A stretch of 64,000 nt of DNA from an uncultured Bacteroidota bacterium (GTDB lineage Bacteria > Bacteroidota > Bacteroidia > Chitinophagales > Chitinophagaceae). The notes beneath the pieces are model-generated. The model saw only the letters and a program-made list of their open reading frames with translations. It did not search any database and was not told the DNA's origin. The stretch's first letter is position 1; each line of letters begins with the position of its first letter. The position numbers and the translations under genes were made by a program. Below, piece after piece: positions 8,093 to 30,613 of this stretch. The DNA is taken from NCBI GenBank assembly GCA_903882805.1, contig CAIRYK010000075.1, forward strand, positions 28,768 to 92,767. The letters are read 5' to 3'.

Positions 8093-10714
8093 ATGAAAAT
8101 ACTGGATATAAAGGCCATGAACGGCCCTAACTACTGGAGCGCTAACAGACATAAATTGATAGTAATGCTGCTGGACCTTGAAGACATGGAACAGCGGCCC
8201 ACAGATAAAATACCCGGTTTTGAGGAACGCCTTGAAGCGCTAATGCCCACTCTATTCGAACATCGCTGCAGCGAAGGCGTGCCCGGCGGCTTTTTTATGC
8301 GTGTAAAGGAAGGCACATGGATGGGTCATGTGATAGAGCATATAGCGCTGGAACTACAAACGCTGGCCGGCATGGATACCGGCTTTGGCCGCACACGCGC
8401 CGCCACTGATCCGGGCACATACTATGTGGTGTTTTCCTATCAGGAAGCTAAAGCAGGTATATATACCGCCAAAGCGGCTGTGAAAATAGCGCAGGCCCTT
8501 GCCGATGGCGAATCCTACAATCTTGAAGCAGATATACAGGAACTACGAGAGATAAGAGAAGACGAACGCCTGGGCCCAAGCACAGGCTCGATAGTAGAAG
8601 AGGCGATACGCCGGAAAATACCCTATATACGCCTCAACCGCCACTCGCTGGTGCAACTGGGCTATGGGGTAAATCAGTGCAGGGTGCAGGCCACTATAGC
8701 CAGCACTACCAGCAGCATAGCGGTAGAGATAGCGTGCGATAAAGAAGAAACTAAAAACCTGCTCGAAGCGTCGGAAATACCGGTGCCCAAGGGTAGGATA
8801 GTATATGACGAGGAGGACCTGCAAAGCGCTATAAACAAAATAGGGTATCCTATTGTTACCAAGCCGGTGAACGGCAACCATGGGAAGGGCGCTACCACCA
8901 ATATTAAAACATGGGAAGACGCAGTAGCCGGGCTGAAAGCAGCCAAGGTATATGGCCGCGCTGTGATATGCGAAAAGTATATTACCGGTCGCGATTTCAG
9001 GGTGCTGGTGGTGAATTATAAATTTGTAGCGGCTGCGCTGCGCACGCCTGCTGCCGTGATAGGCGACGGTATGCACACCATACGCGAGCTGATAGACATA
9101 GTAAACCACGACCCGCGCCGCGGCTATGGCCATGAAAAGGTGCTCACGGCCATTAAGGTAGACGACTTTACTATAGATATGCTGAGCAAGAAAGGCTATA
9201 CCGTAGACTCCGTACCTGAAGACCGAGAGGAAGTATGGCTTAAACCAACAGCCAACCTGAGCACCGGCGGCACGGCTACCGATGTTACCGATTTTGTGCA
9301 CCCTACCAATGTGTTTATGTGCGAGCGCATAGCGCGCATTATAGGTCTGAATATATGCGGTATTGATATTATGGCCGAAGACCTGAGCGTGCCAATAACA
9401 GAAATAGGCGGCGCTGTGCTGGAAGTAAATGCAGCTCCCGGTTTCAGGATGCATCTGGACCCTACAGAGGGACTGGCGCGCAACGTTGCCGAACCTGTGA
9501 TAGATATGTTGTATCCTCCGGGCTCTACGGCGCGTATACCTATTGTGGCAGTGTCGGGTACCAATGGAAAGACCACTACCACACGCCTTATAGCGCATAT
9601 AGTAAAACAAATGGGCTATAAAGTGGGCTACACCACCACCGACGGCGTATACATACAAAACCAACTAATGATGAAGGGCGACTGCACCGGTCCGGTATCG
9701 GCGGAGTTTGTGCTGCGCGACCCTACTGTAAACTATGCTGTACTGGAGTGCGCCCGCGGCGGTATACTGCGCGCAGGTCTGGGTTTCCATAATTGCGATG
9801 TAGCGGTGGTAACCAATGTTGCCGAAGACCATCTGGGACTGGGCGGTATAGATAGTTTGGAAAAACTGGCTAAAGTGAAAGCTGTGCCGGCGCATACGGT
9901 GTTCCCAAAAGGATATGCCATCCTCAATGCCGACGACGATCTGGTGTACAACATGCAAGAAGATCTGGAATGTAAAATAGCTTTGTTCTCGCTACACGAA
10001 GACAACTCGCGTATAAAGAAACATTGCGCCAAGGGTGGTATAGCGGCTATATACGAAAATGGCTTTGTAACGCTGCTGAAGGGTAGCTGGAAGATAAGAG
10101 TTGAGAAGGTAAACAACATACCGCTGACGTTCTCGGGTATGGCGGAGTTCAATATTGCCAATGTGCTGGCTGCTACGCTGGCCGCTTATGTGCAAGACTT
10201 TAAGACCGAAGATATACGCCAGGCGCTGCAAACATTTGTACCGTCGCCGGCGCTTACACCCGGTCGTATGAACATGTTCCATTTCCACGATTACTCGGTG
10301 ATGATAGACTATGCGCACAATACCCATGGCCTGATGGCAATAGGTAAGTTCCTGGCATCGGTAAATGCATCGGTAAAGGTGGGTATCATAGCCGGCGTAG
10401 GCGACAGGAGAGACTCAGATATTATATCGCTGGGCGAGGCTGCAGCCAAGATTTTCGATGAGATAATCATCCGTCAGGATCGCAACCTGCGCGGCCGCTC
10501 AGATCAGGCCATCATAGACCTGATGATACAGGGAATAAGGAACATAGACCCCGACAAGAAAGTAACTGTTATACAGAAAGAAAGCGAGGCAATAGATTAC
10601 GCTTTCGAAACAGCTAAAAAAGACAGCTTCATAGTAATAACCAGCGACGTAGTGCCCGACGCACTGGAGCAAGTGAAAGCCTACAAAGCCAAAGAAGACG
10701 GCGCAATAGCCTAA
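8093..10714 (+). CDS. cphA: Cyanophycin synthetase
   Basis: MKILDIKAMNGPNYWS..., N-terminal domain, ATP-grasp region (KPVNGNHGKGATTNIKTWEDA), Mur-ligase-like region (VSGTNGKTTTTRLIAHIV), C-terminal MIDYAHNTHGL and GDRRDSDI. 873 aa. Confidence 0.97.
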   Translation: MKILDIKAMNGPNYWSANRHKLIVMLLDLEDMEQRPTDKIPGFEERLEALMPTLFEHRCSEGVPGGFFMRVKEGTWMGHVIEHIALELQTLAGMDTGFGRTRAATDPGTYYVVFSYQEAKAGIYTAKAAVKIAQALADGESYNLEADIQELREIREDERLGPSTGSIVEEAIRRKIPYIRLNRHSLVQLGYGVNQCRVQATIASTTSSIAVEIACDKEETKNLLEASEIPVPKGRIVYDEEDLQSAINKIGYPIVTKPVNGNHGKGATTNIKTWEDAVAGLKAAKVYGRAVICEKYITGRDFRVLVVNYKFVAAALRTPAAVIGDGMHTIRELIDIVNHDPRRGYGHEKVLTAIKVDDFTIDMLSKKGYTVDSVPEDREEVWLKPTANLSTGGTATDVTDFVHPTNVFMCERIARIIGLNICGIDIMAEDLSVPITEIGGAVLEVNAAPGFRMHLDPTEGLARNVAEPVIDMLYPPGSTARIPIVAVSGTNGKTTTTRLIAHIVKQMGYKVGYTTTDGVYIQNQLMMKGDCTGPVSAEFVLRDPTVNYAVLECARGGILRAGLGFHNCDVAVVTNVAEDHLGLGGIDSLEKLAKVKAVPAHTVFPKGYAILNADDDLVYNMQEDLECKIALFSLHEDNSRIKKHCAKGGIAAIYENGFVTLLKGSWKIRVEKVNNIPLTFSGMAEFNIANVLAATLAAYVQDFKTEDIRQALQTFVPSPALTPGRMNMFHFHDYSVMIDYAHNTHGLMAIGKFLASVNASVKVGIIAGVGDRRDSDIISLGEAAAKIFDEIIIRQDRNLRGRSDQAIIDLMIQGIRNIDPDKKVTVIQKESEAIDYAFETAKKDSFIVITSDVVPDALEQVKAYKAKEDGAIA

Positions 10715-24667: not shown

Positions 24668-24705
24668 ATTTTGTTTAAATAAATCCTATTTTTGTTAAAC
24701 AAAAT
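24668..24705. promoter_or_regulatory. Operator-like inverted repeat over predicted -7 box upstream of cry-DASH
   Basis: ATTTTGTTTAA (24668-24678) - 16 nt - TTAAACAAAAT (24695-24705), perfect 11-bp arms; spacer contains TATTTTTG (24687-24694), matching TAnnTTTG. Confidence 0.55.
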
Positions 24706-24728
24706 GACGGATATTTTTTCGCAGGCAG

Positions 24729-26066
24729 TTGAAAGCAGATACAGTGGGAAGCAATAAGGTAAGCATAGTATGGTTTAGAAACGATCTCCGGGTGTGCGAT
24801 CAGGCTGCATTGTCGGCGGCGGTTGCTGCCAGCGAGCGGGTATTGCCCGTTTATATATTCGATCCCCGGCAGTTTGGCATAGTAGGCGGTTTTGCAAAAA
24901 CCGGCGGCTTCAGGGCGCGTTTTCTGCTGGAGAGCGTGGCCGATCTGCGCGCTTCGTTGCGCATTTTGGGCGGCGACCTGCTGGTGGCGCGCGGCTTGCC
25001 CGAGGATATATTGCCAAGCCTGTGTAGCGAATATGCCGCGACAGCCGTATATGCAAGCTGGGAGGCGGCCCCCGAGGAAGCGGCTATAGAGCGCAGCCTG
25101 CAACAGAAGCTCGAACCCATGGGCATAAAATGGCGCACGCAATGCACAGCCACCCTTACGCCCCGCAAAGAGCTACCCTTTGATGTGCGCCACATGCCCG
25201 ATGTTTTTACAGCATTCAGGCAAAAGGTAGAGCCGCGACTTGCAGCAGCCACTGCCATACCGGCGCCCACAGTGGTGCGGGTACCGGATATGGGCGACCC
25301 CGGCGCTATACCGGATCAGGAAACGCTTACCGGCATGCCTGCGCCCGCGGCCGACCCGCGAGCTGCCATAAGCTTTACGGGTGGGGCCGCGGCGGCAATG
25401 GAGCGGCTGCAAGACTATATGTGGCGCGGCGACTGCCTGAAAAACTACTTCGATACCCGCAATGGATTGATAGGCGCCAACTACTCTACCAAATTTTCGG
25501 CATGGCTGGCGCTGGGTTGTATATCGCCCCGTACCATATACGACGAGGTGCAGAAATACGAGCGGCAACGCATACACAACAAAAGCACCTACTGGCTGAT
25601 ATTTGAATTGCTGTGGCGCGATTTCTTCCGTTTTTATATGGAGAAATACCACCAACGCCTGTTTTGTGCGGGCGGCGTAAAAAACAAAACATCAGCGGCC
25701 GCTACCGACAGAAAATTGCTGACGCAGTGGATAAAAGGACAAACCGGATCGGCATTTGTAGATGCCAATATGAACGAGCTGCGCCTGACCGGCTTTATGA
25801 GCAACCGGGGCAGGCAGGTTACGGCCAGCTATCTGGTGCACTATATGAAGGTTAGCTGGCTGCTGGGCGCAGCGTATTTTGAAAGCGCGCTGATAGACTA
25901 TGATGTGTATAGCAACTACGGCAACTGGGCCTATGTGGCCGGCGTAGGCGCCGACCCGCGCCCCGACAGATATTTCAACACCGAAAAACAAGCCGCCACC
26001 TACGATGCCGATGCACGCTACCGAACCCTATGGCTACCAACCGCTAAACCGCTACAAACCATATAA
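24729..26066 (+). CDS. DASH-type cryptochrome / photolyase
   Basis: KVSIVWFRNDLRVCDQAAL..., PVYIFDPRQFG, LFWRDFFRFY-like (LLWRDFFRFYMEKY), NMNELRLTGFMSNRGRQVTASYLV, YGNWAYVAGVGADPRPDRYFN, the DASH-clade C-terminal region. Confidence 0.93.
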   Translation: MKADTVGSNKVSIVWFRNDLRVCDQAALSAAVAASERVLPVYIFDPRQFGIVGGFAKTGGFRARFLLESVADLRASLRILGGDLLVARGLPEDILPSLCSEYAATAVYASWEAAPEEAAIERSLQQKLEPMGIKWRTQCTATLTPRKELPFDVRHMPDVFTAFRQKVEPRLAAATAIPAPTVVRVPDMGDPGAIPDQETLTGMPAPAADPRAAISFTGGAAAAMERLQDYMWRGDCLKNYFDTRNGLIGANYSTKFSAWLALGCISPRTIYDEVQKYERQRIHNKSTYWLIFELLWRDFFRFYMEKYHQRLFCAGGVKNKTSAAATDRKLLTQWIKGQTGSAFVDANMNELRLTGFMSNRGRQVTASYLVHYMKVSWLLGAAYFESALIDYDVYSNYGNWAYVAGVGADPRPDRYFNTEKQAATYDADARYRTLWLPTAKPLQTI

Positions 26067-26076
26067 ACAAACGCAA

Positions 26077-26451
26077 ATGAGCAACGAAACACCCGGTAAT
26101 TACTGCTACTACAGCGACCTGCCCTCGCCGCTGGCCTATGAGGACGAAATGCCCGCTCCGCAGCCGACCCCTGCCCTCACCCTTGCCGACAAAGACCGGA
26201 TAATAGAAATGGCCTGGGAAGACCGCACGCCGTTTGAAGCTATAGAATTCCAGTTTGGCCTAAAGGAAAGCGAGGTGCGCGCCCTAATGAAAGCCAACCT
26301 GAAACACCGCAGCTATGCGCTGTGGCGGGCCAGGGTAGAGGCCTGCAAAACAAAGCACGGCACAAGGCGACCGGCCGACATAATGCGCTTTAAATGCTCG
26401 CGGCAACGCCAGATATCGGGCAACAAAATCTCGAAACGCAACAACAGATAA
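26077..26451 (+). CDS. DUF2805 / TIGR03643-type small conserved protein
   Basis: LTLADKDRIIEMAWEDRTPFEAIEFQFGLKESEVRALMKANLKHRSYALWRARVEACKTKHGTRR; HTH-like pattern. Start set at MSNETPGN, 10 nt after the cry-DASH stop. Confidence 0.8.
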   Translation: MSNETPGNYCYYSDLPSPLAYEDEMPAPQPTPALTLADKDRIIEMAWEDRTPFEAIEFQFGLKESEVRALMKANLKHRSYALWRARVEACKTKHGTRRPADIMRFKCSRQRQISGNKISKRNNR

Positions 26452-26479
26452 ATGGATTTTCGTCAGGATGTGGGTACGT

Positions 26480-26690
26480 AACATCACCCTTTTGAGCGAG
26501 CCGAGGCACACAACATCACCCTCTCCCTTGGAGAGGGCCGGGGTGAGGCCTTTTATACTTGCAGAATAGTTCTTCTGCATTTGGTTACCGCCCTGAAAGG
26601 GCAAAAGCTCATAGCGATGGGCATCGCCCATCGACATAATCAACAACACCTTCTCCCTTGACGCTTGGAGGCGCCAGAGTGAGGCAGTAA
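26480..26690. repeat. Palindrome-rich intergenic repeat island
   Basis: Successive palindromes: CCTCTCCCTTGGAGAGG, TGCAGAATAGTTCTTCTGCA, GCCCTGAAAGGGC, CGATGGGCATCGCCCATCG; degenerate second copy CCTTCTCCCTTG...GGAGGCGCCAGAGTGAGGC. Confidence 0.65.
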
Positions 26691-26698
26691 AAATAACT

Positions 26699-27355
26699 AT
26701 GAACAAAAAAGAACTGAGTATAGACGATATTATGTGCATGGAGCAGCGGTATCGCGCTGCATTCATCAATTCGCTGGGCGGCTTTAAGAGTGTGGCGCTT
26801 GTAGGTACGCGTAGCGCCGGTGGGCAAACCAATCTGGCTATTTTTAATTCGCTGTTTCATTTGGGGGCAAACCCACCGTTGTTTGGGTTTGTAGTGCGTC
26901 CCGATTCGGTAGAGCGGCATACACTGGCTAACATACTGGAGACAGGACAATTTACGGTAAACCACATTCGCCCTGACTTTTACCGACAGGCTCACCAAAC
27001 CTCTGCTCGCTATGGCGCCGATGCATCTGAATTTGAGGCTGTAGGGCTTACCGAGCTGTACCGCAATGGATGGCAGGCTCCGTTTGTAGCCGAAAGCGAG
27101 GTGCAGATAGCCGGCGAGCTGGTGCGCAGGGTAGATATTGCCGAAAACGGCGCCATAATACTGGTATGTAAAATACTGTTTGTTAGCGTGCCCGAGACCT
27201 GCCTGCAGCCCGATGGCTACATAGACCTGGAAGCTGCAGGGACAGTAACCTGCTCTGGACTGGACAGCTACCACACCACCAACAGATTGGCGCGACTGAG
27301 CTATGCCAAACCCGATATAGATCCCATAGAGATAGCAGTAACCAATGGTGGGTAA
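26699..27355 (+). CDS. Flavin reductase-like (FMN-binding split-barrel) protein
   Basis: [71 protein letters not shown]. Confidence 0.85.
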
Positions 27356-28871
27356 ACAACCCATAAGCATAGTGTGGCTAAAGCGCGACCTGCGCCTTAC
27401 CGACCACGAACCGCTGAGCCTGGCCATAGCCGCAGGCTTGCCGGTAATGCTGTTGTATTGCTTCGAGCCAACTGTTATGGCCTACCCCGATAGCGATGTG
27501 CGCCACTGGCGGTTTGTATATGAGTCGCTGGCCGATATGCAGCGGCAGCTAAGCGCTTATGAAGGAGCAGTACAGGTGTTTCATAGCGAGGTAATACTCG
27601 TCTTTACCCTGCTGGCGGAGCGCTACGATGTGCGCAACCTATTCTCGCACGAGGAAACCGGCAATCGGCTCACCTACGACAGGGACATTGCCGTACAACG
27701 GTTTTGCGACAACCAAAATATTTTATGGCACGAAAGCCCAACAAACGGTGTGGTGCGCAAGCTGAAAACACGGGCGGCATGGCAAAAAATATGGGAGGCG
27801 CGCATGGCGGCGCCTATAGTGGCCGTGCCGCTTGCCGATGTTCGCTGGCTGGCGGTAGATGCTGATGTGCACAATGCGTTGCGCGGTCCTGAGTTGCCCG
27901 ACACCGTTACTACTCACAATCCCGCATTTCAGCGAGGAGGCGAAACAATGGCAACCCGGTACCTGCACGATTTTTTTAAGAACAGGTATCACAATTATGC
28001 CCGCCATATATCTAAGCCGCTACTCAGCCGGCGCAGTTGCAGCCGGTTATCTCCCTATCTGGCATGGGGCAATGTGTCTATGCGCACCGTTTATCAGCAG
28101 GCGCTTACCCTGTACCTGGGCGGGGGCAATAAGCGCACGCTCAGTCAGTATATATCGCGGTTGCATTGGCATTGCCATTTTATACAGAAGTTTGAGACCG
28201 AGTGCCGCATGGAAACCGAACACGTAAACACCGGTTACCAAAACAAGTGCAAACCCTACAACGCAGCTCTGGTAGCGGCATGGCAGCAAGGCCGCACCGG
28301 CGTGCCAATAGTAGACGCCAATATGCGCTGCGTAATAGCCACTGGCTTTATCAACTTCAGGATGCGGGCTATGCTGGTGTCGTTTTTGGTATATAATCTT
28401 TGGCAGGAGTGGCAGACCGGGGCGTACCACCTTGCCCGCCAGTTTCTCGACTACGAGCCCGGTATACACTATCCGCAGTTTCAGATGCAGGCGGGCGTTA
28501 CGGGCATCAATACCCTGCGCATATACAACCCCGTAAAAAACTCCATGGAGCATGACACTGAAGGCTTGTTTATAAGAATGTGGGTACCCGAACTAAAAGA
28601 CGTACCATCGAAGCTGATACACGAGCCATGGAACATGACACAGATGGAACAGCAGCTATACGGTTGCACAATAGGCAAAGACTATCCCGAGCCGGTAGTA
28701 GATGTAACCGTGAGCCAAAAAACAGCCACCGATACCGCCTGGGCATGGCGCAAAGAAATAGATGTGCAGCAAGATGCACAACGTATACTGCAACAGCACA
28801 CCAACCGCAAAACCACTAAAGAAAAAACATTGCATCCGCTATTGCTATTCGATACCGAACATGGAACGTAA
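27345..28871 (+). CDS. Cryptochrome/deoxyribodipyrimidine photolyase family protein
   Basis: [25 protein letters not shown]..., [84 protein letters not shown]. Overlaps previous CDS by 11 nt. Confidence 0.92.
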
Positions 28872-29019
28872 CAACAAAACAGTGCAAAAAGCACACCTAC
28901 CCCAGAAAATATGTCTGCGCTGTGGCCGCCCCTTTGCCTGGCGCAAAAAGTGGGCACGCGTGTGGGACGAAGTAAAATACTGTAGCGACGGCTGCCGCAC
29001 TGCGCCTAAAAAACAGTAA
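28861..29019 (+). CDS. DUF2256-type small zinc-ribbon protein
   Basis: [52 protein letters not shown]; CxxC...CxxxC with RPFxWRKKW signature. Start trimmed from 28762; overlaps photolyase by 11 nt. Confidence 0.87.
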
Positions 29020-29029
29020 CCCTAACCCC

Positions 29030-29091
29030 TCTGGCGCGAGTGTTCCGCAGGATCACTCGTGTCTCACTAAAGAAGCCGGTTTGTAACCGGC
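29030..29091 (-). repeat. REP-like double hairpin, left copy (inverted relative to the right copies)
   Basis: TCTGGCGCGAGTGTTCC-GCA-GGATCACTCGTGTCTCACTAAAGAAGCCGGTTTGTAACCGGC; reverse complement closely matches 29714-29774. Confidence 0.85.
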
Positions 29092-29104
29092 GTTAAGTGG
29101 TATT

Positions 29105-29663
29105 TCACAATTCCAGCTTTACAATAGGAAGAATACCCGGTTTGTTATCGTAATAATCTATTGCGCTACTGTATTTATAATCTTGTGCCCGCCACACAAT
29201 ACCTGCTCTTACCGGATTTTCGTGAAGGTAGTTTAGTCGTTGGGCTATTTTTTCATCGGTATTAAGGGCTATAGGGTGGTAGTCGTGTTTCCAAAACTGA
29301 TATTCAACAACATGGTTATTTATTCTTCCGGCATAGTTAAACAGGTTGAGCATCCAATCTCGCCGACTTTCTTGTGGGTTTTCGTGTATGGCTTTTATAA
29401 TCTGTTTGGATGTGTATTTTTTGAAATCCCTCATTATATCGCTCACAGTATTGGTTTCGCTGCCTCTTATTACCAAATGAATGTGGTTGTTCATTATCAC
29501 CCACGCATGCAATATCATCCCGTTTTTCATTTTGACAATACAGGAGGCTCTTGCAAATAAGCTCTTTATATTGCTCTCTTGAAAGTGCGTCTATCCAAGC
29601 CACAACAGTGGAATTAACAAAGTAGGATAGATAATTATCGTAGATTTTATACCGCGAAGACAT
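29105..29663 (-). pseudogene. REP-associated tyrosine transposase (RAYT / IS200-like Y1), frameshifted
   Basis: N-part MSSRYKIYDNYLSYFVNSTVVAWIDALSREQYKELICKSLLYCQNEK in one frame; C-part KNGMILHAWVIMNNHIHLVIRGS...FWKHDYHPIALNTDEKIAQRLNYLHENPVRAGIVWRAQDYKYSS in another. Joined by one extra A at the A5/T5 run 29523-29527. HxH (HIHL) motif present. Confidence 0.85.
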
Positions 29664-29713
29664 GGAATAAAGATAGGTTATGGATTTTATAACTACAAGC
29701 AATCCCATACGCC

Positions 29714-29774
29714 GCCGGTTACAAACCGGCTACTTTAGTGAGACACGAGTGTTCATTCGAACACTCGCGCCAGA
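29714..29774 (+). repeat. REP-like double hairpin, right copy 1
   Basis: GCCGGTTACAAACCGGC...CGAGTGTTC-ATTC-GAACACTCG CGCCAGA. Confidence 0.88.
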
Positions 29775-29865
29775 TGTTAATGGTAATTATAGTAGGTTTT
29801 ATACCGCGAAGACATGGAATAAAGATAGGTTATGGATTTTATAACTAAAAGCTCGTCCCTGTGCC

Positions 29866-29925
29866 GCCGGTTACAAACCGGCTACTTTAGTGAGACACGT
29901 GTTCATACGAACACTCACACCAGAT
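29866..29925 (+). repeat. REP-like double hairpin, right copy 2
   Basis: GCCGGTTACAAACCGGCTACTTTAGTGAGACACGTGTTCATACGAACACTCACACCAGA. Confidence 0.88.
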
Positions 29926-30145
29926 GGTACCGCCAATTTATATTAATTTTTGCCTGAATAATATTGCCTACCTTTATTTGTAGAGTTCAGCATTTACCCC
30001 CATTAACCGATTTGAAGACTGAGATTTACGAATTTACAGCATAAAAAACACAAAAATATATTGTATCTTTTTGTGACAATCTAAAGATATCAGTCGAAGT
30101 AAAATAGGGTAATGCGCTACCGCAATGCACAAAAAACAATAAGCA

Positions 30146-30613
30146 ATGAAGAAGACACTACGATTGATAGGGTGCATAGGGCTGACGCTGGCGGTTGGCG
30201 GTATATCGGGGGCGTTTACGGTAGATGGTGTGAAGGGCTGGTACCGCACTCTCAACAAGCCATTCTTCAATCCGCCCGACTATCTTTTTGGTCCGGTATG
30301 GACGTTGCTGTATGCGCTTATGGGTGTGTCGTTGTTTTTTATATTGGGGTTGCCACCAACGCCGCAACGCAAGCGGGCAATAATGCTATTTGCTACGCAG
30401 CTTATTCTTAATTTTTTCTGGAGCATAATATTCTTTAGCCTCCACGCTCCTGGTTGGGCCCTGGTAGAGATAGCTGCACTTTGGGGCTGCATACTCTATA
30501 TGATCATTTCCTTCTCCCGGTTGCGCCGTGTGGCTGGTGCGCTACAATGGCCCTATCTGGCATGGGTGTCGTTTGCAGCGTTGCTCAATGCGGCTATCTT
30601 TTACTTGAATTGA
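30146..30613 (+). CDS. tspO: TspO/MBR family protein
   Basis: YRTLNKPFFNPPDYLFGPVWTLLYALMGVSLFFI; LILNFFWSIIFFSLHAPGWALVEI; five hydrophobic segments. Confidence 0.92.
   Translation: MKKTLRLIGCIGLTLAVGGISGAFTVDGVKGWYRTLNKPFFNPPDYLFGPVWTLLYALMGVSLFFILGLPPTPQRKRAIMLFATQLILNFFWSIIFFSLHAPGWALVEIAALWGCILYMIISFSRLRRVAGALQWPYLAWVSFAALLNAAIFYLN

Follow-up and report, generated by a model that had tools for sequence, protein, structure and literature searches.

The stretch analysed here, 64,000 nucleotides of an uncultured bacterium of the Chitinophagaceae (Bacteroidota; contig CAIRYK010000075.1, positions 28,768 to 92,767; hereafter the window), contains a tight block of five genes at 24729-29019 that code, in order, for a DASH-family cryptochrome (cry-DASH), a DUF2805 protein, a flavin-reductase-like protein, a second photolyase-family protein and a DUF2256 protein. 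We consider it likely that this block belongs, as its photolyase/cryptochrome arm, to a light regulon of the LitR/CarH type, and it is probably part of a sunlight-protection programme. We use the name PHR500 for the photolyase subfamily, of about 500 amino acids, to which the second photolyase gene belongs. Spacing within the block is, in order, 10 nt, 247 nt and two overlaps of 11 nt, by which the PHR500 gene is joined to the flavin-reductase-like gene upstream and the DUF2256 gene downstream. The original prediction, made from the letters of the window, had described a light-associated module of six genes ending with TspO. Open reading frames (ORFs) and domain matches returned all six genes at the same coordinates on the + strand, with the same 10-nt gap and overlaps; the first five stand as a module, whereas TspO does not belong to it.

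An operator-like repeat and its association with LitR

The block is preceded by an operator-like inverted repeat, TTGTTTAA-N16-TTAAACAA, of which the window holds one exact copy (Table 1) and no other even when three mismatches are allowed. In same-genus genomes, TTTTGTTTAA...TTGTTAAACAAAA stands upstream of the first gene of the cluster, whichever that is, and TAnnTTTG occurs at the same place inside the repeat in 8 of 11 aligned cases. The window has TATTTTTG at 24687-24694, inside the repeat, which fits TAnnTTTG, presumably the Bacteroidota -7 box. A scan for sigma-70-type promoters and terminators gave a result near chance level.

The repeat was counted in 2.2 Mb of Bacteroidota module loci, with 150 permuted arms as the control. 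Perfect sites numbered 27, against 0 for the permuted arms, and 52 sites were found with at most one mismatch, against a permuted mean of 0.35 and a maximum of 4. These 52 sites have a spacing of 16; for each of the other spacings between 10 and 22 the count is 0 to 2. Most of the sites (37 of 52) fall in the 150 nt preceding module genes, stretches that make up 3.6% of the DNA. Lone DUF2805 genes are also preceded by sites (loci L178, L186, L194 and L200), and further sites lie upstream of genes for 6-pyruvoyl tetrahydropterin synthase (PTPS) and rhodopsin and of DUF4397-like and HtpG-like genes, the latter two kinds identified by eye from their sequences.

In locus L220, a perfect operator (9652-9683) and the gene of a rhodopsin (PF01036) are 7 nt apart, close to a cluster of LitR, photolyase and folE genes. 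The sites upstream of HtpG-like genes are in Flavobacteriaceae (L203, 2479-2510, and L215, 5992-6023), and they may reflect a wider stress regulon or chance. In three genomes (L232, L243 and L153), operator-like sites with two mismatches precede the gene of a protein of about 54 amino acids with the motif MFGxFKKKS.

Across the whole genome to which the window belongs (G000; 4.9 Mb in 95 contigs, 98% complete), only five places match the operator with at most one mismatch. One directly abuts a gene of the LitR/CarH type (B12 photoreceptor; C92, 21198-22076) that is followed by crtI-like and crtB genes, for a phytoene desaturase-like protein and phytoene synthase. Two lie between a short-chain dehydrogenase (SDR) gene and a divergent PTPS-folE-SRPBCC operon, and one precedes a fasciclin gene by 91 nt. 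By gene content, the SDR/PTPS-folE-SRPBCC locus (C42, 73000-75600; L312, 7003-9575) looks like one for a tetrahydrobiopterin-like pathway, with GTP cyclohydrolase I, 6-pyruvoyl tetrahydropterin synthase and a reductase. By the sites there, genes of the SDR and SRPBCC kinds, which are missing from the window cluster, belong to the same putative regulon at another place in the genome.

The presence of sites follows that of LitR. Among 46 genomes, sites are present in 28 of the 32 with LitR and in 3 of the 14 without it (p = 2.6e-5), and among those at least 90% complete the corresponding counts are 23 of 26 and 1 of 8. The operator abuts LitR itself in several genomes, and TnnACA, the CarH half-site, is present in each operator arm. 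The G000 LitR has a MerR DNA-binding domain (PF13411, 65 bits), and its sequence keeps Wx9EH and ExHxxG, which mark CarH proteins that sense adenosylcobalamin (AdoB12) (PMC9304148). We regard LitR control of the operator as well supported but unproven. No operator of a Bacteroidota LitR was found in the literature searched; the closest published idea is a speculation on LitR in the light-induced carotenoids of Chryseobacterium (PMC7064467).

We suggest that in the dark LitR, as a B12-binding MerR-type repressor, would sit on TTGTTTAA-N16-TTAAACAA, overlapping the promoter, and that in the light it would be released. Release would then jointly switch on LitR-crtI-crtB, for carotenoid, the SDR gene and the PTPS-folE-SRPBCC operon, for a putative pterin pathway, and the gene of the fasciclin-like protein, together with all five genes of the window block. 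Among the products of the block, DUF2256 would be a small protein that binds zinc and partners the accessory photolyases, DUF2805 a light-regulon protein resembling helix-turn-helix (HTH) proteins, and the flavin-reductase-like protein a source of reduced flavin.

Several observations weigh against this model. The B12 domains of the G000 LitR fall below the Pfam cut-offs (PF02607, 21.7 against 23; PF02310, 20 against 32.1), and two genomes without detected LitR, G003 and G067 (82% and 75% complete), have sites above control. A site within 150 nt was found at only 20 of 116 DUF2805 genes. Some of the loci later counted were those in which the motif had first been seen, although the whole-genome and LitR sites were not used to define it. 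The 247-nt gap makes a single transcript of the block putative, and a terminator may lie within the gap. The repeat also departs from described operators, both from T(G/A)TACA-N12-TGTA(C/T)A of Pseudomonas (PMC9758184) and from the direct repeats of 11 bp, arranged in tandem, of Thermus and Bacillus CarH (PMC9304148), being inverted and having a 16-bp spacer. This symmetry and fixed spacing, together with the sites of G003 and G067, would also suit a real regulon whose operator is bound by some other regulator, for example one of CRP/FNR type as in Thermus, with LitR just one of its targets. We think this unlikely, given that the sites track LitR, abut it in several genomes and hold TnnACA in their arms.

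Photolyases and the two small genes across genomes

Co-occurrence was assessed in 101 related genomes. Photolyases were sorted by score, length and similarity clustering, and not by a tree with reference sequences, into a near-universal cyclobutane pyrimidine dimer (CPD) type and four accessory types: DASH, PHR500, a type of about 370 amino acids with the flavin adenine dinucleotide (FAD) domain only, and FeS-BCP. DUF2805 occurs in 36 of the genomes, DUF2256 in 39, FAD_binding_7 in 79 and PF04244 (FeS-BCP type) in 31. Counted without tree correction, DUF2256 goes with an accessory photolyase in 37 of 39 genomes, against 2 of 62 (p = 1e-22). The corresponding counts are 9 of 11 against 0 of 24 within the genus of the window (p = 8e-7) and 7 of 7 against 1 of 19 in the rest of the family, taking one genome per genus. 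For DUF2805 they are 32 of 36 against 7 of 65. No accessory photolyase was detected in four genomes with DUF2805 (G003, G011, G045 and G093) or in two relatives with DUF2256. The patchy distribution inside the genus speaks for joint gain and joint loss on repeated occasions. The small genes thus clearly co-occur with photolyases in related genomes, and the original prediction that they and the flavin-reductase-like gene go with photolyases is borne out by these counts and by recurring clusters. No paper tying DUF2256 or DUF2805 to photolyases was found in the literature searched; where papers name DUF2805, their subjects are correlations in metagenomes and a Nudix fusion.

When ORFs were clustered over 70 loci of relatives, gene order proved shuffled, with many short overlaps, and the four accessory photolyase types, DUF2805 and DUF2256 recurred. 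The flavin-reductase-like gene adjoins DUF2805 or photolyases in 20 sampled genomes; other members, by genome, are SDR (15), folE (5), SRPBCC (5), DUF429-like (4) and LitR-type MerR (3) genes. Among 80 named loci of Bacteroidota, retrieved through DUF2805 only and picked by similarity to a Bacteroidota alignment, a photolyase lies within 10 kb in 48 and DUF2256 is found in 41. DUF2256 is on the same strand as an accessory photolyase and at most 150 nt from it for 21 of 40 genes of the relatives and 31 of 41 of the named set, and its partners are PHR500, DASH, FeS-BCP and short photolyases alike. Outside the Bacteroidota, where Proteobacteria have comparable pairs of DUF2256 and a photolyase, FeS-BCP, DUF2256 and TIGR03643 adjoin one another in Acinetobacter, FeS-BCP is followed by DUF2256 in Rhizobium and Ensifer, and DASH, FeS-BCP, SDR and DUF2256 stand together in Vibrio parahaemolyticus. 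PHR500 and DUF2256 overlap by 11 nt in Salinivibrio, and in Vibrio pelagius the flavin reductase adjoins PHR500, with TIGR03643 close by. Counter-examples are plasmid loci of Pantoea, Deinococcus, Erwinia, Salipiger, Spirosoma and Nostoc, where DUF2256 or DUF2805 has no photolyase within 8 kb. DUF2805 was not found in phage records.

The mobilizable Acinetobacter plasmid pABA-2f10 (L244) carries FeS-BCP, DUF2256, TIGR03643 and nudC as a portable photolyase cassette. On a Sphingobium plasmid (L254, 7980-8464), the gene after DUF2256 codes for a DUF3253 protein, which might stand in for DUF2805. At four loci (L107, L110, L118 and L122), a two-gene unit of DUF2805 and the flavin-reductase-like gene follows the operator and has no photolyase in its vicinity, which hints that this pair has a role apart from photolyases.

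In 40 DUF2256 sequences C18, C21, C41, C45, W31 and W35 are invariant, the pattern CxxC...CxxxC comprising four predicted zinc-ligand cysteines, and there is a conserved WRKKW patch. The AlphaFold2 model is a treble-clef-like beta-hairpin plus helix; Foldseek matches to YacG and an FCS finger are weak and not significant (E above 1), and the family has been placed in the TRASH clan (PMC4047054). The DUF2805 alignment has 18 invariant columns with an invariant AWEDRT core, and the C-terminus is conserved and basic, with NKISKR in most sequences. Its predicted start in the window agrees with that of relatives, which have in common a YCYYSDLPSP motif near the start. The AlphaFold2 model of DUF2805 is helical (core predicted local distance difference test scores of 85-94), and the best fold matches, sigma region 4 and TrpR, are not significant (E of 2 or more). 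For neither protein was a significant solved relative found by sequence or fold.

The original prediction went further, to a claim that is stronger than the regulon model and compatible with it: DUF2256 and DUF2805 would be dedicated physical partners of the accessory photolyases, serving DNA or lesion targeting or cofactor loading, and the flavin-reductase-like protein would keep FAD reduced. We hold this claim to be live but unproven, with the chances leaning somewhat against it. The presence of DUF2256 matches that of accessory photolyases almost one for one, and the gene often lies close to them on the same strand, the arrangement recurs across phyla down to the overlap in Salinivibrio, and the 35 PHR500 proteins compared below lack the terminal tryptophan of the triad, so that their FAD may need another reductant. 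Yet none of the 40 DUF2256 frames (at most 102 amino acids) or 36 DUF2805 frames (at most 167) is fused to a photolyase, 4 of the 36 genomes with DUF2805 have no accessory photolyase, and the indiscriminate pairing of DUF2256 argues against one specific interface. The occurrence of DUF2805 without accessory photolyases, and alone behind the operator, fits membership of the regulon at least as well as the role of a dedicated photolyase subunit. More doubtful still is a broader model in which both proteins would be general accessory factors of several distant photolyase/cryptochrome subfamilies, as parts of a light regulon that spans the Bacteroidota, depends on B12 and has an undescribed operator, while PHR500 would have an altered substrate chemistry and its FAD would be reduced by the co-encoded flavin reductase and not by a tryptophan chain.

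Patchiness within one genus, shuffled gene order and plasmid copies are also what a mobile or selected UV-resistance island might show, gained and lost jointly, in which shared selection would be all that ties the small proteins to it. This seems improbable to us: the lone small genes keep the operator and therefore look co-regulated and not just co-inherited, and the 18 invariant residues of DUF2805 speak against it as well.

PHR500, TspO and other features of the window

The active site of PHR500 was compared between 35 PHR500 proteins and 29 CPD-type relatives at E. coli-equivalent positions, in what we take to be the numbering of E. coli photolyase. At E274, N341, M345, N378, W382 and W384, PHR500 has R, F, A/S, H, F/L/I and M, whereas the relatives retain E, N, M, N, W and W; only W277 is common to both groups. 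The signature of H and M is also found in Vibrio, Salinivibrio and Novosphingobium. The PHR500 protein of the window passes no NCBIfam subfamily cut-off, and a DASH protein is its best match in the PDB, with most of the similarity in the FAD domain. Assignment as a class I CPD photolyase was rejected on the replaced CPD-site and terminal tryptophan-triad residues in the set of 35, and assignment as an FeS-BCP/prokaryotic 6-4 photolyase on the presence of PF00875 in place of the PF04244 N-terminal domain; PF04244 has no match in G000. Judged by its residues, PHR500 is a conserved non-canonical photolyase subfamily and probably not an ordinary CPD photolyase; it could be a photoreceptor or act on another lesion. 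Since it lacks the terminal tryptophan of the triad, its FAD may depend on another reductant, for which the flavin-reductase-like protein (PDB 3fge match, E = 4e-62) is, as speculation, a candidate.

The cry-DASH protein has its best PDB matches in 6kii and 1np7 (E = 1e-125 or better), and a third photolyase of G000, of a type present in most relatives, lies on another contig. In G007, from the genus of the window, the cluster reads DASH, SRPBCC, DUF2805, SDR, flavin reductase, PHR500 and DUF2256; that of the window is without SRPBCC and SDR.

Table 1. Position, strand and supporting match of features in the window.
Feature	Positions	Strand	Basis or remark
Operator-like inverted repeat TTGTTTAA-N16-TTAAACAA	24671-24702		exact match
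cry-DASH, 445 aa, TTG start	24729-26066	+	TIGR02765, 526.5 bits (curated cut-off 317)
DUF2805/TIGR03643 protein, 124 aa, helical, HTH-like	26077-26451	+	PF10985, 112 bits; TIGR03643
Non-coding gap, 247 nt, short repeats and hairpins	26452-26698	+	SDR gene at this place in the G007 cluster
Flavin-reductase-like split-barrel protein, 218 aa	26699-27355	+	PF01613 (Flavin_Reduct)
PHR500, photolyase family	27345-28871	+	PF00875 and full PF03441
DUF2256 protein, 52 aa, treble-clef-like	28861-29019	+	PF10013
REP-associated tyrosine transposase (RAYT)	29105-29530	-	NF047646
TspO	30146-30613	+	PF03073

TspO starts 1126 nt past the end of DUF2256, with the RAYT gene between them. The RAYT region (29046-29902), inserted between DUF2256 and TspO, has inverted repetitive extragenic palindromic (REP) repeats of 38-47 nt on both flanks and a 119-nt direct repeat. 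The place of TspO on the same strand, 1.1 kb downstream, would favour a tetrapyrrole-linked photosensory module that includes it. However, among the 70 loci of relatives no other module locus has TspO nearby, no operator lies near TspO even at three mismatches or fewer, and the RAYT element intervenes. TspO is ruled out as a member by this lack of conservation and of an operator, and the tetrapyrrole reading, unconserved and hence discounted, is largely refuted and highly improbable.

Significance and comparison with known systems

The block is real and functionally coherent, and is probably an arm of a light regulon in which the operator, the host phylum and the two small members are new. For the widespread families DUF2256, found at least in Bacteroidota, Proteobacteria, Cyanobacteria and Deinococcus, and for DUF2805, it offers a concrete context, that of light-induced DNA repair. 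A sequence-defined operator should make the light regulons of non-phototrophic Bacteroidota readable from genomes, and the conserved active-site changes of PHR500 predict a different substrate or function.

The UV-B inducible operon of Synechococcus PCC 7335 (PMC9649867) likewise has two photolyase-family genes in one operon with an 11-nt overlap. DUF2805, DUF2256 and a flavin-reductase-like gene are not reported there, and its PhrSph98-type enzyme retains the Glu and Asn that PHR500 is without. Short photolyase-like proteins (SPL; PMC9178010, PMC9426592) and FeS-BCP are probably the FAD-domain-only proteins of about 370 amino acids and the PF04244 proteins, respectively, of the relatives' clusters; neither is in the window cluster, and PHR500 has an N-terminal photolyase domain and no PF04244.

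With CarH of Thermus, Bacillus and Myxococcales (PMC9304148), the system shares a regulator beside crt genes, Wx9EH and ExHxxG, and TnnACA half-sites over the promoter; unlike theirs, the proposed regulon extends to unlinked photolyase and pterin loci. The light regulon under LitR/CarH (PplR/PmlR) in Pseudomonas putida and P. mendocina takes in phrB, cryB, folE, an SDR gene and genes of unknown function (PMC9758184). The proposed Bacteroidota regulon is like it in having a MerR-type LitR and in the putative co-regulation of phrB, a cryB-type photolyase, folE, a short-chain dehydrogenase and genes without a known function. It differs in that its LitR keeps Wx9EH, like AdoB12 sensors, and in holding DASH, PHR500, DUF2805, DUF2256, flavin-reductase-like and PTPS genes.

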